A DNA stretch of 42,849 nucleotides from Gemmatimonadaceae bacterium. Lineage in GTDB: Bacteria; Gemmatimonadota; Gemmatimonadetes; Gemmatimonadales; Gemmatimonadaceae. The notes under the pieces are model-generated. The model did not search any database, was not told the origin of the DNA, and saw only the letters and a list, made by a program, of their open reading frames with translations. Shown here one piece after another: positions 24,747 through 40,558 of this stretch (position 1 is its first letter; the number at the start of each line of letters is the position of its first letter). The stretch lies in NCBI GenBank assembly GCA_036003045.1, contig DASYSS010000103.1:1-42849 (forward strand), in the 5' to 3' direction. The position numbers and the translations under genes are program-made.

Positions 24747-24872
24747 GTGGGTGGACGGGTGGACGGGTGGACGGGTGGACGGGTGGACAGCTGCGACGCT
24801 CTGCGTGGTATCACCGGCCCACCGGCCCACCGGCCCACCGGCCACCCGTTCATCCGTCCACCCGTCCACCTA
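24747..24872. repeat. Octamer repeat arrays in opposed orientation in a divergent promoter region
   Basis: Bases 24751-24788 are nearly five copies of the 8-bp unit GTGGACGG. Bases 24818-24841 are three copies of CCCACCGG. Bases 24851-24870 are CCGTCCAC units, the complement of the first array. The left and right arrays can therefore pair as a stem. The element fills the gap between divergent padR and the thiolase gene, only 11 bases from the thiolase ATG. Confidence 0.9.
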
Positions 24873-24882
24873 TCTTTCCCTC

Positions 24883-26094
24883 ATGTCCGATCCAACTCGC
24901 ACCCCAGTCATCGTTTCCGCAGCCCGAACCCCAATCGGCCGGTTCCTGGGCGGACTTTCCCCGTTGACCGCCCCCGAGCTCGGCGCGGTCGCGATTCGAG
25001 CCGCTGTTCAACGTGCCGGGATCGATCCCGGCGACGTCGAAGAAGTCATCATGGGCAACGTCATTCAGGGTGGCGTCGGGCAGGCGCCCGCTCGGCAGGC
25101 GCAGATCAAGGCGGGCATCCCCGCCAGCGTCTCCGCGATGACGGTGAACAAGGTCTGCGGCTCCGGCCTCAAGGCCGTCATGCTCGCGGCGCAGGCGATC
25201 AAGGCCGGCGATCGCGAAGTAGTCGTCGCCGGGGGACAGGAGTCGATGTCCAACGCGCCGTACTACGTCTATGGAATGCGCGGCGGCGTGAAGGCGGGCG
25301 ACCAGACGATGGTCGACGGCATGATCAAAGATGGACTCTGGTGTGCCTTCTGCGACGTGCACATGGGGCGGCACGCCGAATACACCGCGAAAAAGGCCGG
25401 CGTGACACGCGAAGCGCAGGACGAGTTCGCCGCCGCGTCGCACCGCAAGGCTGTCGCGGCCATCGACGCGGGCAAGTTCAAGAACGAGATCGCTCCGGTC
25501 ACGATCGCGAGCAAAAAGGGAAACACGATCGTCGACACCGACGAGGGTCCGCGGCGCGACACGAGCGTCGAAGCGCTCGGCAAACTGCGTCCCGCATTTC
25601 CGAACAAGGACGGATCGACGGCGGACCTCAGCGTCACGGCAGGCAACGCGCCGGGCTTGAACGATGGCGGAGCCGCGCTGGTGGTCGCGTCCGAAGCGTT
25701 CGCCAAGGCCCGCAACCTGCCGATCCTCGCGCGCATCGACGCGTATGCGACAGGAGCGGTCGAGCCGCAAGAGCTTTTCTTCGCGCCAATTCTCGCCGTG
25801 AAGAACTTGATGGCGAAAGAGAACTCGAAGATCGGCGACTACGACCTGATCGAAGCCAACGAAGCGTTCGCTTCCCAGTCGATTGCCGACGGCGAAGGCC
25901 TCGGGTGGGACTGGAGCCGCGTCAACGTGAACGGCGGGGCGATTGCGCTCGGCCATCCAATCGGGGCCAGCGGCGCTCGCGTCCTGACGACTTTGCTCTT
26001 TGCGCTCCAAGACCGTGGACTCCGGCGCGGTTTGGCCACACTTTGTCTGGGCGGAGGCGACGCCGTCGCCCTCAGCGTGACTCGAATGAACTGA
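24883..26094 (+). CDS. Acetyl-CoA C-acetyltransferase (thiolase)
   Basis: This is a 403-residue thiolase. The nucleophile is Cys92 in VNKVCGSGLKAV. The catalytic His is in GGAIALGHPIGASGAR (His358), and the second Cys is in LCLGGGDAVAL (Cys388). It condenses two acetyl-CoA to acetoacetyl-CoA or cleaves the product. With the downstream 3-hydroxybutyryl-CoA and acyl-CoA dehydrogenases it fits short-chain acyl-CoA metabolism. The frame continues upstream to 24688 through the octamer arrays, but the ATG at 24883 gives the family N-terminus MSDPTRTPVIVSAARTPIG. No Shine-Dalgarno is visible; the 5' leader is octamer repeat. Confidence 0.95.
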   Translation: MSDPTRTPVIVSAARTPIGRFLGGLSPLTAPELGAVAIRAAVQRAGIDPGDVEEVIMGNVIQGGVGQAPARQAQIKAGIPASVSAMTVNKVCGSGLKAVMLAAQAIKAGDREVVVAGGQESMSNAPYYVYGMRGGVKAGDQTMVDGMIKDGLWCAFCDVHMGRHAEYTAKKAGVTREAQDEFAAASHRKAVAAIDAGKFKNEIAPVTIASKKGNTIVDTDEGPRRDTSVEALGKLRPAFPNKDGSTADLSVTAGNAPGLNDGGAALVVASEAFAKARNLPILARIDAYATGAVEPQELFFAPILAVKNLMAKENSKIGDYDLIEANEAFASQSIADGEGLGWDWSRVNVNGGAIALGHPIGASGARVLTTLLFALQDRGLRRGLATLCLGGGDAVALSVTRMN

Positions 26095-26109: not shown

Positions 26110-26144
26110 CCGGCCCACCGGCTCACCGGCCTACCTGCCTACCG
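26110..26144. repeat. Four octamer repeats before bioY
   Basis: Four successive 8-bp units related to CCGGCCCA run from 26110 to 26141, followed by CCG. They end 6 bases before the bioY ATG. The phase is exact although single bases vary. Confidence 0.85.
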
Positions 26145-26150
26145 ATCCGC

Positions 26151-26705
26151 ATGACCTCTCTCTCGACCACCGAAGCACTCCGCCCGTCTCGCACGACCGC
26201 GATCGGCGTCGTCGGGTTCGCCGCCGCGGTTGCCGCCGCGTCGCAGATCGCGATCCCGCTGCCATGGACTCCGGTCCCCATCACGTTGCAGCCGATGCTC
26301 GTGGTCCTCGCTGGTATGTGGCTCGGTCCTGCGGCGGGAGCCGCCAGCATGGCGCTGTATCTCGCTGCGGGGGCGGCTGGTCTTCCAGTGTTCACGCCGA
26401 TCGGGGCGCCGGGGCTCGCGCGCTTCTTCGGCCCCACGGGTGGATATCTACTCGCCTATCCCGCGGCGGCATGGGTCGCCGGCGCGCTGAACCGTCGCGC
26501 TTCGACGCTGTTCACACGTTCTCTCGCCGCGATCGCCGGAATGGTCGTGATCTTCTTCGGCGGGCTCGCGCAGCTCACGCTTCTCACCGGCAGCGTCTCG
26601 CGCGCCGTGCAACTCGGCATCACGCCCTTCGCCGCGCTGGATTTGGTCAAGGCGTTCTTCGCCGCCGTCATCAGCGGATCGCGGATCGTACGTAGAGGCG
26701 TCTGA
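26151..26705 (+). CDS. bioY: Biotin transporter BioY (ECF-type substrate-binding protein)
   Basis: This is a 184-residue membrane protein with about six helices. Typical BioY features are IPLPWTPVPITLQPMLVVLAGMWLGP near the N-terminus, LYLAAGAAGLPVFTPIGAPGLARFFGPTGGYLLAYPAAAWVAG, and a C-terminal FAALDLVKAFFAA. BioY captures biotin and may work alone or with an ECF energising module, which is not seen here. The ATG follows an octamer array directly and has no Shine-Dalgarno. Biotin would serve acyl-CoA carboxylases, which suits the acyl-CoA genes around it. Its stop codon overlaps a possible CTG start of the next gene. Confidence 0.93.
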   Translation: MTSLSTTEALRPSRTTAIGVVGFAAAVAAASQIAIPLPWTPVPITLQPMLVVLAGMWLGPAAGAASMALYLAAGAAGLPVFTPIGAPGLARFFGPTGGYLLAYPAAAWVAGALNRRASTLFTRSLAAIAGMVVIFFGGLAQLTLLTGSVSRAVQLGITPFAALDLVKAFFAAVISGSRIVRRGV

Positions 26706-26785: not shown

Positions 26786-27625
26786 GTGTCGTACGTCGTC
26801 ATCGAGACGACCGTCGGCTTCTTGCTCGTGAGCGGATTGCCGCTCGCCGGCGGCGGCTCGCTGAGCTCCGACGTCTGGGCCACCTGCATCTCGCTCCTGA
26901 TCGCTACGGGCCTTTCACTCTCTTGGCTCGAGAACCACCCGTCAACCGGTCCACGCGTCCACCGGTCCACCCCTCGTTGGAGCGACGTCTGGCTCGATCG
27001 CCAAGCTGCGCGACCGGGTGCGATCGCCCTGGGATTCGGAATGGGCGCGTTGGCCATCGCCTTGCCGACGGCGGCGCTCACCGCGGGGCACTGGCTCGCC
27101 CGTGTGCCCGGCGATCCGTCGTCTTGGATCGGCGGCGCTCTTCGTGTCTCCGTTGCGCTGCTGCCCGCGGCGCTCGCCGAGGAGCTGCTCGCTCGCGGCT
27201 ACATCCTGTCGATCCTGGTCAGGTGGTGGGGCTGGCCCTGGGCGATTGCCACGACGAGCCTCGCCTTCGGAGCGCTGCATATGCGCAACCCCGGCGCGAC
27301 GGTGGAATCGATTACCCTCGTCACGATCGCCGGCGTGTTTCTGTGCGCCGTGCTGTTCGCGACGCGGAGTCTGTATGCAGCGTGGGCCGCGCACTTCGCC
27401 TGGAACTGGACAATGGCGGTCGTCTTTCACGTATCCGTAAGTGGAATCCCGTTCCTATCTCCCCACTACCGTTATGTTGATGCGGGGCCCGATTGGGCGA
27501 CTGGCGGGACGTGGGGCCCCGAGGGTGGCTTGCCCGCCGCTTTGACAATGATCGCCGGCAGCGTCTGGCTCTTCTCGCGCCGCGGTCGAGTGGGTCTTTT
27601 GAGTCGTTCAACGGGAGAAAGCTGA
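26786..27625 (+). CDS. CPBP-family intramembrane metalloprotease, possibly longer at the N-terminus
   Basis: From the first standard start (GTG at 26786) the protein has 279 residues and about six membrane helices. The three CPBP (Rce1-like) motifs are present: EELLARG (132-138), FGALH-MRN (161-168) and HFAWN (203-207). CPBP proteins are membrane proteases or act in bacteriocin self-protection and protein modification. The frame stays open upstream to 26696 and reads GRIRPFWRVVAFAIITL, a likely true N-terminus; a CTG at 26702 would overlap the bioY stop. Residues 51-64 (HPSTGPRVHRSTPR) are encoded by octamer repeats lying inside the gene. It shares one base with the next gene (TGATG). Confidence 0.85.
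   Translation: MSYVVIETTVGFLLVSGLPLAGGGSLSSDVWATCISLLIATGLSLSWLENHPSTGPRVHRSTPRWSDVWLDRQAARPGAIALGFGMGALAIALPTAALTAGHWLARVPGDPSSWIGGALRVSVALLPAALAEELLARGYILSILVRWWGWPWAIATTSLAFGALHMRNPGATVESITLVTIAGVFLCAVLFATRSLYAAWAAHFAWNWTMAVVFHVSVSGIPFLSPHYRYVDAGPDWATGGTWGPEGGLPAALTMIAGSVWLFSRRGRVGLLSRSTGES
26937..26976. repeat. Five octamers inside the CPBP protease gene
   Basis: Five consecutive 8-bp units related to ACCGGTCC (ACCCGTCA, then ACCGGTCC and variants) lie within the coding sequence between predicted membrane segments. They keep strict 8-bp phase, as in the intergenic copies. They encode a polar, Pro/Arg/His-rich stretch unlike the surrounding membrane protein. Confidence 0.85.
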
Positions 27626-28530: not shown

Positions 28531-29694
28531 ATGACGTGGGCGCTGACGCCGCTCAGCGAAGAGCAGCGAGAGATTCAAGCCGTCGCGCGCGAATTCGCCC
28601 GGCGGGAGATCGCGCCGCACAGCGCGCAGTGGGATCGCGACGCGTACTTCGAGCCGTCGCTCGTCAAAAAGCTCGGCGAGCTCGGCTTCCTCGGCATGCT
28701 CGTCCCCGAGCAATACGACGGTCTCGGGCTCGACACGCTCACGTATATGGTAGTGCTCGAGGAGATCGCGATCGTCGACGCGTCGGTCGCGGTCATGCTC
28801 AGCGTCCACAACTCGCTCCCCACGCAAATGATCCTGCGTTGGGGAACGGAGCAGCAGAAAGAGTGCTGGCTCAAGCCACTCGCGCGCGGCGAGATGCTCG
28901 GCGCATTCGCGCTCTCTGAACCCGAAGCGGGTTCGGACGCCGCGTCGCTGCGCACGCAGGCCGTGCGCGACGGCAACGACTGGATCTTGAACGGCACCAA
29001 GGCGTGGGTCTCGAGCGGGACCAAGGGCGACGTCATTCTCGCCATGGCGCGCACCGACTCTGCCGAGGACCGGCGCGGCGCGCGCGGCATCGGCGCCTTC
29101 ATTCTCACGCCCGACTTACCCGGCTTCAACGTCGGGAAAAAGGAAGACAAGATGGGGCTGCGCGCGTCGCCGACGGTGCAGCTCCATTTTTCGGACATGC
29201 GCGTGCCCGGCGACCGCCTCCTCGGTGCGCCGGGCAGTGGCTTCATCTACGCGATGCAGTCCCTCGACAACGGACGCCTCGGCATCGCGGCGCAGGCCAT
29301 CGGCATCGCCGAGGCGGCGCTGCGCCACGCGGCCGCATACGCCGCCGACCGCAAGCAGTTCAAGAAACCGATCAAGGAATTCCAGGCGATTCAATTCAAG
29401 CTCGCCGACATGGCCACCAGCGTGGCCGGCGCGCGAGCTCTCCTGCACATGTCGGCCAGGGCGAAGGATCGCGGCGAGAAAATGACGCAGTTCAGCGCGA
29501 TGGCGAAGCTGTCGGCCAGCCGCGCCGCCATGTGGGTCACCACCCAGGCCATTCAGATTTTCGGCGGTTACGGATATGTGAGTGATTACCCCGTCGAACG
29601 CCTGTTCCGCGACGCCAAAGTCACGGAGATTTACGAGGGCACGTCGGAGATTCAGCGTATCGTGATCGCGCGGGAGTTGTACTCGCACCGGTAG
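28531..29694 (+). CDS. Acyl-CoA dehydrogenase (short/branched chain type)
   Basis: This is a 387-residue flavoenzyme. The first signature is [18 protein letters not shown]. The second region is [42 protein letters not shown], in which the Glu of YEGTSE is the expected catalytic base for short-chain (butyryl-type) enzymes. It oxidises an acyl-CoA to the enoyl-CoA using FAD and passes electrons to ETF. With thiolase and Hbd it fits butyrate or branched-chain acyl-CoA degradation; leucine dehydrogenase downstream suggests branched-chain amino acids. The gap to hbd is 60 bp. Confidence 0.95.
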
Positions 29695-29695
29695 C

Positions 29696-29715
29696 CGGTC
29701 CCGGTCACCGGTCAC
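29696..29715. repeat. CGGTCAC heptamer array
   Basis: Three units related to CGGTCAC (the first CGGTCCC-like) sit directly after the acyl-CoA dehydrogenase stop. The same 7-bp unit recurs at 39946-39968. This is a period-7 relative of the octamer family. Confidence 0.7.
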
Positions 29716-29730
29716 CACGCTGTGACTTTT

Positions 29731-29860
29731 TCGGAGTTGGCAGTTCTCGGAGTTCGGCAGTTTTCGGAGTTCGGCAGTTTTCGGAGTTTGGCAGTCTCGG
29801 AGTTTGGCAGTTTCGCTGTTCGGCAGTCTCGGAGCTCGGCAGTTTCGGAGCTTGGCAGTC
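29731..29860 (+). repeat. Eight copies of a 16-bp tandem repeat (TCGGAGTT/CGGCAGTT type)
   Basis: Eight successive units of 16-17 bp follow the consensus TCGGAGTTCGGCAGTT, each made of two related octamers. Units differ by one to three bases. They lie between the acyl-CoA and leucine dehydrogenase genes. There are no spacers, so this is not CRISPR. The same octamers occur in both orientations at 32776-33076. Confidence 0.92.
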
Positions 29861-30965: not shown

Positions 30966-30990
30966 GGTGGACGCGTCCACCCGTTCACCC
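30966..30990. repeat. Octamer repeat with a 16-bp palindrome before rpiB
   Basis: GGTGGACGCGTCCACC at 30966-30981 is a perfect palindrome formed by two opposed octamer units, followed by a CCGTTCACCC unit. It begins at the leucine dehydrogenase stop codon and ends 15 bases before the rpiB ATG. Confidence 0.8.
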
Positions 30991-32761: not shown

Positions 32762-32775
32762 AGCGCGCTGAGAAG

Positions 32776-33076
32776 TGCCAGACTCCGAGACTTCCAGACT
32801 CCGAAACTGACAAACTCCGAAACTGCCGAACGCCGAGACCGCGAAACGTCCGAACTCCGAAACTGACAAACTCCGACAGCGGCCGAACCCCGAGACCTGA
32901 ACGACCACCGGCGTCAAGCGCGAGATTGACTCGCTCCTGACGCCGGTCTGGTTTTGTCGGGCTTCGGCGGTTTTCGGCTTTCGGAAGTTCTCGGCTCTTG
33001 AAAGCTTCGCCGCCTCGGCCTTCGGAAGTTTCGGCCGTCGGCAGTTTCGGAGTTCGGAAGTTTCGGCCTTCGGCAG
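32776..33076. repeat. Large inverted octamer array around a central hairpin
   Basis: This fills the 323-bp gap between convergent glyA and the TIR-like gene. The left arm (about 32776-32890) is made of octamers such as ACTCCGAA and ACTGACAA. The right arm (about 32970-33076) is made of their complements, TTCGGAGT and TCGGCAGT types. At the centre ACCGGCGTCA (32907-32916) pairs exactly with 32938-32947, enclosing a second short stem. No gene is present in the gap. It may act as a two-way transcription terminator. Confidence 0.88.
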
Positions 33077-33084
33077 GTCTCTCT

Positions 33085-34722: not shown

Positions 34723-36381
34723 GTGCGCCCTCTCATCCGAGTGGTCACGAGTGCGGAATCCGCGGCCCTCGATTCCTCGACAATCAATGCAGGCGTTCCT
34801 TCGCGCGCGCTCATGCAGCGTGCCGGCGCCGCGGCCGCGTCGGAGATGGGACTTCGATTTCGTGATCGTCTGGAGTCGGGCGTCCTCATTCTCGCCGGTC
34901 CGGGCAACAACGGCGGCGACGCTTGGGTCATCGCGCGCGCGCTGAACGGGGTCGGAGCTCGCGTCCGAATCATCGAGCCCGTCGCGGCCGCCACGCCTGA
35001 CGCGCGCGCCGAACGCGCTCTCACCATCGAAGTGCTCGGCGATGGCGCGATCGTTTCTCTCGAGCAGGCGAGCGTCGGCGGAGAATCGGTCGTCGTCGAC
35101 GGCTTGCTCGGCACCGGCTCGACCGGCGCGCCGCGCGGCGAGATCGCGAAAGCCATCGCGGCGTGTGCGTCGGCGCGCCGACGCGGCGCCACGGTCGTCG
35201 CCGTCGACGTTCCGAGCGGACTCGATGCCTCGACCGGCGAAACTCTCGGGGAATTCGCCGGCGCCGATCTCACGCTTACCTTCGGCTCGATCAAGCGCGG
35301 CCATTTGGTGAATCGCGAGGCATGCGGGAGCATCGTTGTTCTCGACATTGGTTTGACTGGGACCGCCGCGTGGCCGATTGGCCGTGATGCCGGAACCGCA
35401 GTCATGCAATCGCGGCCTCCTGGCTCGCCGGCCCACCGGCTCCCGGAGTTAGTCGACGAGGCGTGGGTCGCCGCGCAGCTCCCACCGATCGCGTGGGACG
35501 CCCATAAGGGCACGCGAAAAAAGCTCGCGATCATCGGCGGCGCGCGCGGAATGGCCGGGGCAAGTGTGCTCGCGGCACGTTCGGCGTTGCGCAGCGGCGT
35601 TGGTATGGTGAAGCTCGTCGTCGCCAGCGAGAGCGTTCAACCCGTTCAAGAAGCCGAACCACAGGCGCTCTGTGCCGCGTGGCCCGCCGACGACGACGCA
35701 CTTCACCGCGACGTCTTGTCGTGGGCCGACGCACTCGTCATTGGGCCCGGCCTGGGACTCGGGCCGGACAGTGAAGCGCTTCTCCACCGAGTGCTCGATG
35801 CGTGGAAGGGTCCGACGCTCATCGACGCGGACGCGATCACGCATCTCGCCAAACGGCGCGAGGAGCTTTTCCAGACGCTCTCCGGCCGACCGACCCTCGT
35901 TACGCCCCACGTGTTCGAGTTCGCGCGGCTGTCCGGCGCCGAACCGGCCGACATCTTGGCAAACCGCTTCGAGATTGGCGCCGATCTCGCGAAGCACACC
36001 GGGGCGACGATCCTCCTCAAGGGTGTTCCGACGGTCATCACCAGTCCCGCCGGCGATCGGCTCGTGAGCGCCGCCGGAACTCCCGTGCTCGCCACAGGCG
36101 GCAGCGGCGACGTATTGAGCGGCATCGCGGGAACTCTGTTCGCTCAAATCGGTGATCCACTTTGCGCCGGTGCCGCCGCCGCGTGGGTTCACGGACGAGC
36201 GGCCGAACGAGCGAGCGTCACGGGTGATGGCGTCGTTCGCGGCCTCTCACTCGACGACGTCGTCCGCGAGCTCCGCGCGAGCTGGCATTTCGACACTCGA
36301 CCGGCGCGCTATCCAGTTCTCACCGAACTTTCGCTGTCCGGTCCACGCGTCCACCCGTCCACCCGTCCACCGGGTCGATGA
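34723..36381 (+). CDS. nnr: Bifunctional NAD(P)H-hydrate epimerase / ADP-dependent dehydratase
   Basis: Nnr repairs hydrated NAD(P)H. The 552 residues hold a YjeF-N epimerase (about 1-225: GPGNNGGDAWVIARAL at 59-74 and VDVPSGLDASTG at 161-172) and a ribokinase-fold dehydratase (about 260-530: KKLAIIGGARGMAGASVLAARSALRSGVGMVK, and LATGGSGDVLSG with catalytic Asp463). The linker, residues 231-241 (RPPGSPAHRLP), is encoded by octamer repeats, and so is the C-terminal tail SGPRVHPSTRPPGR. The GTG at 34723 is the most plausible start; a second GTG is at 34741. The stop overlaps the thiL ATG by 4 bp. Confidence 0.93.
   Translation: MRPLIRVVTSAESAALDSSTINAGVPSRALMQRAGAAAASEMGLRFRDRLESGVLILAGPGNNGGDAWVIARALNGVGARVRIIEPVAAATPDARAERALTIEVLGDGAIVSLEQASVGGESVVVDGLLGTGSTGAPRGEIAKAIAACASARRRGATVVAVDVPSGLDASTGETLGEFAGADLTLTFGSIKRGHLVNREACGSIVVLDIGLTGTAAWPIGRDAGTAVMQSRPPGSPAHRLPELVDEAWVAAQLPPIAWDAHKGTRKKLAIIGGARGMAGASVLAARSALRSGVGMVKLVVASESVQPVQEAEPQALCAAWPADDDALHRDVLSWADALVIGPGLGLGPDSEALLHRVLDAWKGPTLIDADAITHLAKRREELFQTLSGRPTLVTPHVFEFARLSGAEPADILANRFEIGADLAKHTGATILLKGVPTVITSPAGDRLVSAAGTPVLATGGSGDVLSGIAGTLFAQIGDPLCAGAAAAWVHGRAAERASVTGDGVVRGLSLDDVVRELRASWHFDTRPARYPVLTELSLSGPRVHPSTRPPGR
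35413..35446. repeat. Four octamers in the interdomain linker of nnr
   Basis: Four 8-bp units related to CGGCCCAC lie in frame between the epimerase and dehydratase domains. They encode a Pro/Gly/Ser-rich linker. Phase is exact and units vary by one to three bases. Confidence 0.75.
36338..36377. repeat. Octamers encoding the Nnr tail and abutting the thiL start
   Basis: Four CCCGTCCA-type units and a partial fifth run from 36338 to 36377. They encode the last dozen residues of Nnr and stop one base before the thiL ATG at 36378. Confidence 0.88.
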
Positions 36382-37307: not shown

Positions 37308-39407
<2,100 letters not shown>

Positions 39408-39731: not shown

Positions 39732-40094
39732 ATTCGGGTCGTCGTGCGGCACGCTTCGCGTGGCCGCTCGGACGAGACGTTCCTATCCTGTCGTCCTCGG
39801 TGAACGGCGTGAGCAGTGGAAATCGCCTGAATGGCGCCGTGTGTGGAGCGACGTCGACCGCGACGGCGGGTGAGGACACGCCGGGGGCTCGGCTGGGGTA
39901 GTTGGAATTGCCAGGGTGGCGACTCGGTCGTCGACTAGAGAGAAGCGGTCACCGGTCTCCGGTCACCGATCCCCGAAACACAGTCAACTGACGTAGAATG
40001 TGCCGCGCCCCGCGAGTGACCGGGTGTTAGGATTCAAGTAGGACTCCCGCCGAAACCCGTTCACCAGACCACCCGTCCACCTGTCCACCCTCCC
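39732..40094. other. Intergenic stretch between ftsB and the 56-residue ORF, with two repeat arrays
   Basis: This is 363 bp without a convincing gene. It carries three CGGTCAC-type heptamers at 39946-39968 and four octamers at 40057-40088 (CCGTTCAC, CAGACCAC, CCGTCCAC, CTGTCCAC) that end 6 bases before the next ATG. I see no rRNA, tRNA or strong terminator in 39732-39945. Confidence 0.7.
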
Positions 40095-40265
40095 ATGGAC
40101 GACAAACAACTCCAGAAGCTGGTCCGCCAGAACGCCGCGAAGGCCGCGAAGCTCACGAAGGCGCGCGACGGCCGCCAGTTCGACAAGACGCTTCCCAAGC
40201 CGCCCGAAGACGCGGACATCGAGCGGACGAAGTTCTTCAAGGAAATGAAGAAGCGCGAGTTCTGA
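40095..40265 (+). CDS. Small basic protein of 56 residues, function unknown
   Basis: This short ORF begins MDDKQLQKLVRQNAAKAAKLTK and ends ERTKFFKEMKKREF. It is rich in Lys, Arg and Ala, with no membrane segment and no Cys. The middle GRQFDKTLPKPPEDADIE looks like a turn between two helices. Codon third positions are strongly G/C, like the real genes around it, and the ORF starts directly after an octamer array as bioY, thiL and the thiolase do. There is no visible Shine-Dalgarno. I do not recognise the family; a nucleic-acid or ribosome-associated role is only a guess from the charge. Confidence 0.6.
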   Translation: MDDKQLQKLVRQNAAKAAKLTKARDGRQFDKTLPKPPEDADIERTKFFKEMKKREF

Positions 40266-40354: not shown

Positions 40355-40428
<74 letters not shown>

Positions 40429-40484: not shown

Positions 40485-40558
40485 GGCAGGGTAGCTCAGG
40501 TGGTTAGAGCACGGCACTCATAATGCCGGGGTCGTGGGTTCGAGTCCCACCCCTGCTA
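40485..40558 (+). tRNA. Elongator tRNA-Met (CAT anticodon)
   Basis: A 74-base cloverleaf with anticodon CAT. The body closely follows E. coli tRNA-Met elongator (AGCTCAG, GGTTAGAGCAC, then CTCATAATG and GGGGTC). The acceptor pairs GGCAGGG with CCCTGCT, with a G-T first pair. The T arm is GTGGG-TTCGAGT-CCCAC. CCA is not encoded. tRNA-Ile2 also has CAT but its body differs. Confidence 0.94.

Follow-up and report, generated by a model that had tools for sequence, protein, structure and literature searches.

Short border-located 8-bp tandem repeats private to one species of Gemmatimonadaceae

We found that a degenerate octamer, NGYCCACC (family A), is dispersed into hundreds of intergenic gaps of the genome of a soil bacterium of the Gemmatimonadaceae, where it forms short tandem arrays that are polar with respect to the neighbouring gene borders and are often paired in inverted orientation. 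With a probability of about 0.55, we read these arrays as species-private dispersed 8-bp tandem repeats that were inserted, slip in length and survive at gene borders, their pairs forming stem-loops. The genome is a draft MAG of 5.37 Mb in 106 contigs, and the window, that is, the whole stretch of 42,849 bp analysed here, is its contig C103; the species is represented by this one genome. The thiolase encoded in the window has its nearest named relatives in Gemmatimonadaceae/Gemmatimonadetes MAGs. Counts were taken in a first sample of 1.2 Mb, whose contigs were picked from a hit-bearing list, so that genome-wide density may be overstated, and in a full sample of 1.6 Mb (30% of the MAG); the latter was assembled in part around known hits, and the densities given below therefore come from the first sample alone. 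Genes were called with a home-made script gene finder trained on the sample, and start positions are approximate. The orientation of an array was defined by its C-rich strand, with the 3' end as the outer and the 5' end as the inner end.

The octamers CCGTCCAC and CCGGCCCA proved to be rotations or variants of the single unit NGYCCACC, which occurs mainly as CGTCCACC and GGTCCACC, with GGCCCACC as a further variant, and typical arrays read AGGTGGAC and CGGTGGAC. Position N was C in 146 cases, G in 104, T in 75 and A in 7, and position Y was T in 288 and C in 42. Period-8 arrays of any unit amounted to 211 per Mb in intergenic DNA versus 7 per Mb in coding DNA of the 1.2 Mb sample, with none in the Markov-resampled intergenic DNA that served as its control, and 8 and its multiples were the only strongly raised periods. 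The exact three-unit pattern of family A gave 97 arrays in 1.6 Mb, compared with none in a fifth-order Markov genome of the same size, and 176 matches in the whole genome; a degenerate G-rich unit of period 8 gave 138 arrays (blocks of at least two units) in 1.6 Mb. Four was the commonest number of units among arrays with at least three. The preliminary description of this DNA had taken the element to be genome-wide, which the 176 exact matches support, and the density of phased arrays, which it allowed might also arise in random sequence, was absent from both Markov controls.

All nine phased 8-bp arrays originally noted in the window contain copies of the unit, the weakest being those first delimited at 242-280 and 35413-35446, which are degenerate, and at 30966-30990, which has two units and one inverted unit. 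Specifically, the opposed arrays placed at 24747-24872 and thought able to form a stem are real at 24750-24870, where a five-unit array on the minus strand (GGTGGACG; 24750-24786) constitutes the left arm, a 24-bp core (24787-24810) separates the arms, and the right arm on the plus strand (24811-24870), composed of four NGCCCACC-type units followed by GTCCACC units, ends 12 bp before the thiolase start at 24883; the inner part of this structure, a 106-nt stretch, folds at -62 kcal/mol. The remaining arrays are on the plus strand. A degenerate array (242-281) abuts the stop codon of a minus-strand gene (283-1476), a degenerate four-unit array (26115-26143) follows the thiolase stop and precedes the next start at 26151, and a minimal inverted pair, GGTGGAC-GCG-TCCACCCGTTCACC (30967-30989), is found between a stop and an rpiB-like start. 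Two other four-unit arrays lie about 20 bp upstream of the enolase gene at 38127 (38075-38103) and about 5 bp upstream of a predicted small ORF at 40095 (40061-40089). Rfam covariance models at gathering thresholds matched two tRNAs only in the window and none of the arrays; adjacent tRNA genes are located at 40355-40428 and 40485-40558.

In the 1.6 Mb sample, 110 of the 138 blocks lay between genes or at gene edges; among 25 blocks inside genes, 19 had just two units and may be due to chance, and six had at least three. For the 110 border arrays, the median distance to a gene was 10.5 bp from the outer end and 92.5 bp from the inner end, the outer end being the nearer one in 84 (p=3e-8). In 68 of them no more than 20 bp separated the outer end from a gene, where random placement gave 28.5 +/- 3.7 and never more than 41 in 2000 trials. 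Stops were faced by 56 border arrays (median 4 bp, 52 within 25 bp) and starts, as approximately called, by 54 (median 42 bp, 23 within 25 bp). Divergent regions were depleted, with 10 among the 77 array-bearing intergenic regions and 184 among all 660 regions (p=0.0017); a further 15 of the array-bearing regions were convergent and start-free. Since stops and starts are faced equally and random placement is far exceeded, the placement rule is the gene border, with the stop side tighter, and not the gene start specifically. Array-free regions showed no compositional skew behind stops; ahead of starts, the genus has a mild skew of leaders towards C.

Whenever both strands carried arrays in one intergenic region, the order was minus followed by plus (GGTGGAC..core..GTCCACC; 26:0), and neighbour pairs in the 1.2 Mb sample, data that overlap with these, gave 16:0 in the same order. 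Both strands were represented in 26 of the 77 array regions, a single array in 50, and two plus arrays in one, and about half of the border arrays belong to inverted pairs. The C-rich strand of family A directs its 3' end at the gene border, and this outward polarity was kept in 35 of the 50 arrays that had no nearby opposite-strand partner. A lead-in resembling GTTYCCSGT was present at the core side of 45 of 95 arrays with at least three units (11.5 expected, maximum 20 in 1000 shuffles), with no excess of such sequences at the outer side. We rejected the idea that single arrays are halves of decayed pairs, leftover partner units being no more frequent than chance. Cores of different loci share no sequence relationship and are short, reaching about 80 bp at most, and most fold no better than their own shuffles. 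Cores including those at G000:C57:11429-11470 and L203:14551-14589, and in congener G003 too, carry CTGAG..CTCAG or TCTGA..TCAGA palindromes, which may represent a hairpin motif common to the cores.

Folding is stronger in array regions than in their array-free counterparts of the same class, and paired arrays would give strong stem-loops, which makes an effect on 3' ends plausible. Gene ends in array-free regions, and those of other phyla, commonly have strong hairpins as well, and a hairpin excess as a hallmark of the genus was rejected, other phyla being alike. We found a second octamer-phased family, family B (AACTCCGA/AACTGCCG), which is no less polar than family A (18 of 20 border arrays; pairs 4:0) and likewise hugs stops, with the G/C asymmetry reversed; a simple rule by which the C-rich strand always points outward is therefore ruled out. 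In the window, family B forms a single array on the minus strand (29746-29859) and a pair, in which the left arm on the plus strand (32773-32893) directly follows the glyA stop, the right arm on the minus strand (32956-33077) is 7 bp from the stop of a convergent gene, and the core (32894-32955) contains what appears from its sequence to be a terminator-like hairpin (ACCGGCGTCA...TGACGCCGGTCTGGTTTT). Intergenic 7-bp arrays of the GGTCACC/CACCGGT type, located in the window at 29686-29716 and 39946-39968, represent a third repeat word in the genome.

Arrays inside ORFs could be compared with the proteins of congeners. For example, a five-unit array on the plus strand (26935-26971) forms an in-frame 12-aa insertion in the ORF 26786-27625, and the segment that it encodes (approximately STGPRVHRSTPR) is absent from three congeners in which the flanking residues are conserved. 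In an NAD(P)HX epimerase/dehydratase-like ORF ending at 36381, a degenerate array on the plus strand (35413-35446) lies in an extra inter-domain linker of about 17 residues that is absent from four congeners, and a four-unit array (36343-36371, plus strand), just before the next start at 36378, encodes an extra C-terminal tail relative to congeners, a lineage-specific extension. A loop in an HrpB-like helicase on contig C57 is a weaker case. At such coding sites the arrays are, on comparison of the sequences, inserted DNA, and the repeats thereby create new protein segments in the form of linkers, loops and C-terminal tails. Intergenic lengths, compared with those of congeners with regard to insertion versus overwriting, showed no significant differences, the congeners being too divergent.

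The family A unit is private to one species. Its exact three-unit pattern had no match in 39 relatives, a set that includes five congeners, and occurred in one only of 394 other genomes of the phylum, with two overlapping matches; the exact two-unit pattern had 0-1 matches in these five congeners. The same architecture was seen with other unit pairs in three congeners, namely TATGGGCG..CGCCCATA in G004, GAACGGTG..CCGTTCAT/CCGTTCCA in G003 and the 7-mers GTGGACC..CCACGTT in G005, in each case with a G-rich left arm and a C-rich right arm; because the loci are few, this is a descriptive observation. A few sites strikingly suggested that a syntenic locus carries a replaced unit in congeners, an idea that was rejected after 139 orthologous intergenic regions yielded 3 shared ones (p=0.38). 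In two congener spacers orthologous to array-bearing spacers of the window, before the rpiB-like gene (G002:C11, L196) and after glyA (G004:C41, L198), we noticed a REP-like palindrome, TCATCCTGAG...CTCAGGATGA, which in G002 has longer tandem repeats on both flanks. A 7-mer CCACGCC array of about 14 units lies at a contig end (G002:C1, L170 6-105), suggesting that long arrays break assemblies. In addition, the exact three-unit octamer pattern was found in nine stretches of a viral collection (L262-L270), twice in one of them.

These observations may be explained by a model in which short arrays would be inserted at new places by the copying of a few units, would then drift and change length in 8-bp steps by replication slippage, and would be purged from most coding DNA while persisting at intergenic edges. 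Each array is polar, with the lead-in at the core side and the C-rich strand directed outward to the neighbouring stop or start codon. Where a pair encloses a short core particular to its locus, either transcript would form stem-loops, and these may incidentally serve as 3'-end hairpins or as insulators. We found no mobilising enzyme or insertion intermediate, and neutral insertion does not by itself predict the strict polarity and the 4 bp median distance to stops. A dedicated novel activity, such as a repeat-adding mobile element, might instead start from an intergenic core and extend both 3' ends outward by a 7-8-nt unit peculiar to the species, by templated or slippage-driven addition; we consider this decidedly improbable, although, if true, it would explain why the arrays have a fixed lead-in, point outward and form inverted pairs, and why species of one genus differ entirely in their unit.

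Rather than surviving insertions, the arrays could be selected stem-loop terminators or insulators, kept since the hairpins of the paired arms end or block transcription leaving a gene. The uniform order of the inverted pairs, the tight fit behind stops, the use of convergent and depletion of divergent regions, the stronger folding of array regions and the terminator-like hairpin enclosed by a family B pair are all in keeping with this; however, arrays occupy one strand only in 51 of the 77 regions, with no leftover partner unit beside single arrays, gene-end hairpins are common without arrays and in other phyla, and most cores are no better folded than shuffles, and on balance we find it unlikely. 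Very improbable, in our judgement, is Rho loading, in which RNA of the outward strand, rich in C and poor in G, would serve as a rut site and halt transcripts that enter a gene untranslated or in antisense. The outward strand has this composition in family A and in the congener units, and the genome encodes Rho (main rho gene on contig C64), but family B is equally polar with an outward strand (TTCGGAGT/TTCGGCAG) that has more G than C. Cyanobacteria are not known to have Rho. The repeats of Nostoc nevertheless share the anatomy (PMC4692102), which, together with family B, speaks against rut sites as the cause shared by such repeats. A second match to the Rho RNA-binding domain (G000:C22:223189-223398, 40 bits) was observed in an open frame of 614 aa.

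The preliminary description had suggested a 5' leader or protein-binding site, which would act in the translation or regulation of the downstream gene, and had noted that six of the nine window arrays lie within 25 bp of a start and that these starts are poor in Shine-Dalgarno motifs. The former holds within the window, and the latter was borne out more widely, with a motif at 3 of 26 array-adjacent starts versus 273 of 798 other starts whose gap is 30 bp or longer, although the majority of starts in this genome have none anyway; the TAACTGA heptamers of Beggiatoaceae are likewise mostly start-proximal (PMC4679880). Genome-wide, however, stops are faced as often as starts (56 of 110 border arrays) and more tightly, 15 of the 77 array regions contain no start at all, and the bias, looked for at gene starts, was found at gene borders of both kinds. 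A leader role as a general rule is thus refuted, and there is scant likelihood left for this reading. G-quadruplex or i-motif elements, as proposed for the Xanthomonas repeats, would suit perfect GGGTGGAC arrays, which satisfy the G3-N5 rule, and the prevalence of four units, but of the 57 arrays that have four units or more, 8 contain a G3 quadruplex motif, and GGG is absent from family B units, making such a function extremely improbable. As for a REP/REPIN or MITE spread by a RAYT-type (Y1) transposase, the intergenic location, palindromic pairs, hundreds of copies and species specificity would be expected of it, yet Y1_Tnp (PF01797) had no match in this genome and one in congener G001, and cores are unrelated between loci, which have the arrays and the short lead-in alone in common; this we hold to be the least probable origin.

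Among the papers searched, we found none joining Gemmatimonas, tandem repeats and intergenic regions. That no named family covers the element, as had been stated, remains correct in the narrow sense, but repeats of this kind have already been described as the G-rich heptamers GGGAATC of Xanthomonas and GGGGA(C/T)T of Nostoc, which form hundreds of degenerate, mostly intergenic arrays of two to many units, four being most common (PMC4692102). Their G-rich strand is coding right after stops and non-coding right before starts, the two flanking genes lie on average 28 and 160 nt away, inverted pairs number 70 and 75 in two xanthomonads, and few arrays lie between divergent genes (PMC4692102). Family A resembles them in its border placement, where its G-rich strand is the coding one behind stops and the non-coding one ahead of starts, in the fixed orientation of its inverted pairs and in the depletion of divergent regions. 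It differs in a unit of 8 rather than 7 bp, in an unrelated sequence from a different phylum, and in the small number of arrays with four G3 tracts (the 8 of 57 above). The two xanthomonads have the heptamer in common and keep 83% of positions (PMC4692102), whereas neither the unit nor the positions of family A are kept in the congeners compared, which may be more or less distant than the xanthomonads are from each other.

The TAACTGA heptamers of Beggiatoaceae and Cyanobacteria form about 170 arrays, chiefly intergenic and 2-6 units long with some of the units degenerate, which are mainly forward and upstream of starts, with one inverted case and few Shine-Dalgarno motifs nearby (PMC4679880). 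Family A is similar in number, in its mostly intergenic location and in the scarcity of Shine-Dalgarno motifs, but occurs at stops as well as starts and is often paired. Like REP, BIME and REPIN sequences, family A consists of dispersed palindromic intergenic repeats; unlike them, its arms are tandem octamer arrays, its cores are unrelated and the genome has no RAYT. Judged by its anatomy, family A would belong to the border-located short tandem repeats. Unrelated repeat words in three phyla obey one geometry, being polar, border-hugging and mirrored in pairs, and within one genus the word changes completely and the rule appears to stay. This class of bacterial repeats has been poorly explained; the observations point to a common mechanism of spread or a common constraint, for which the genus offers a test case.
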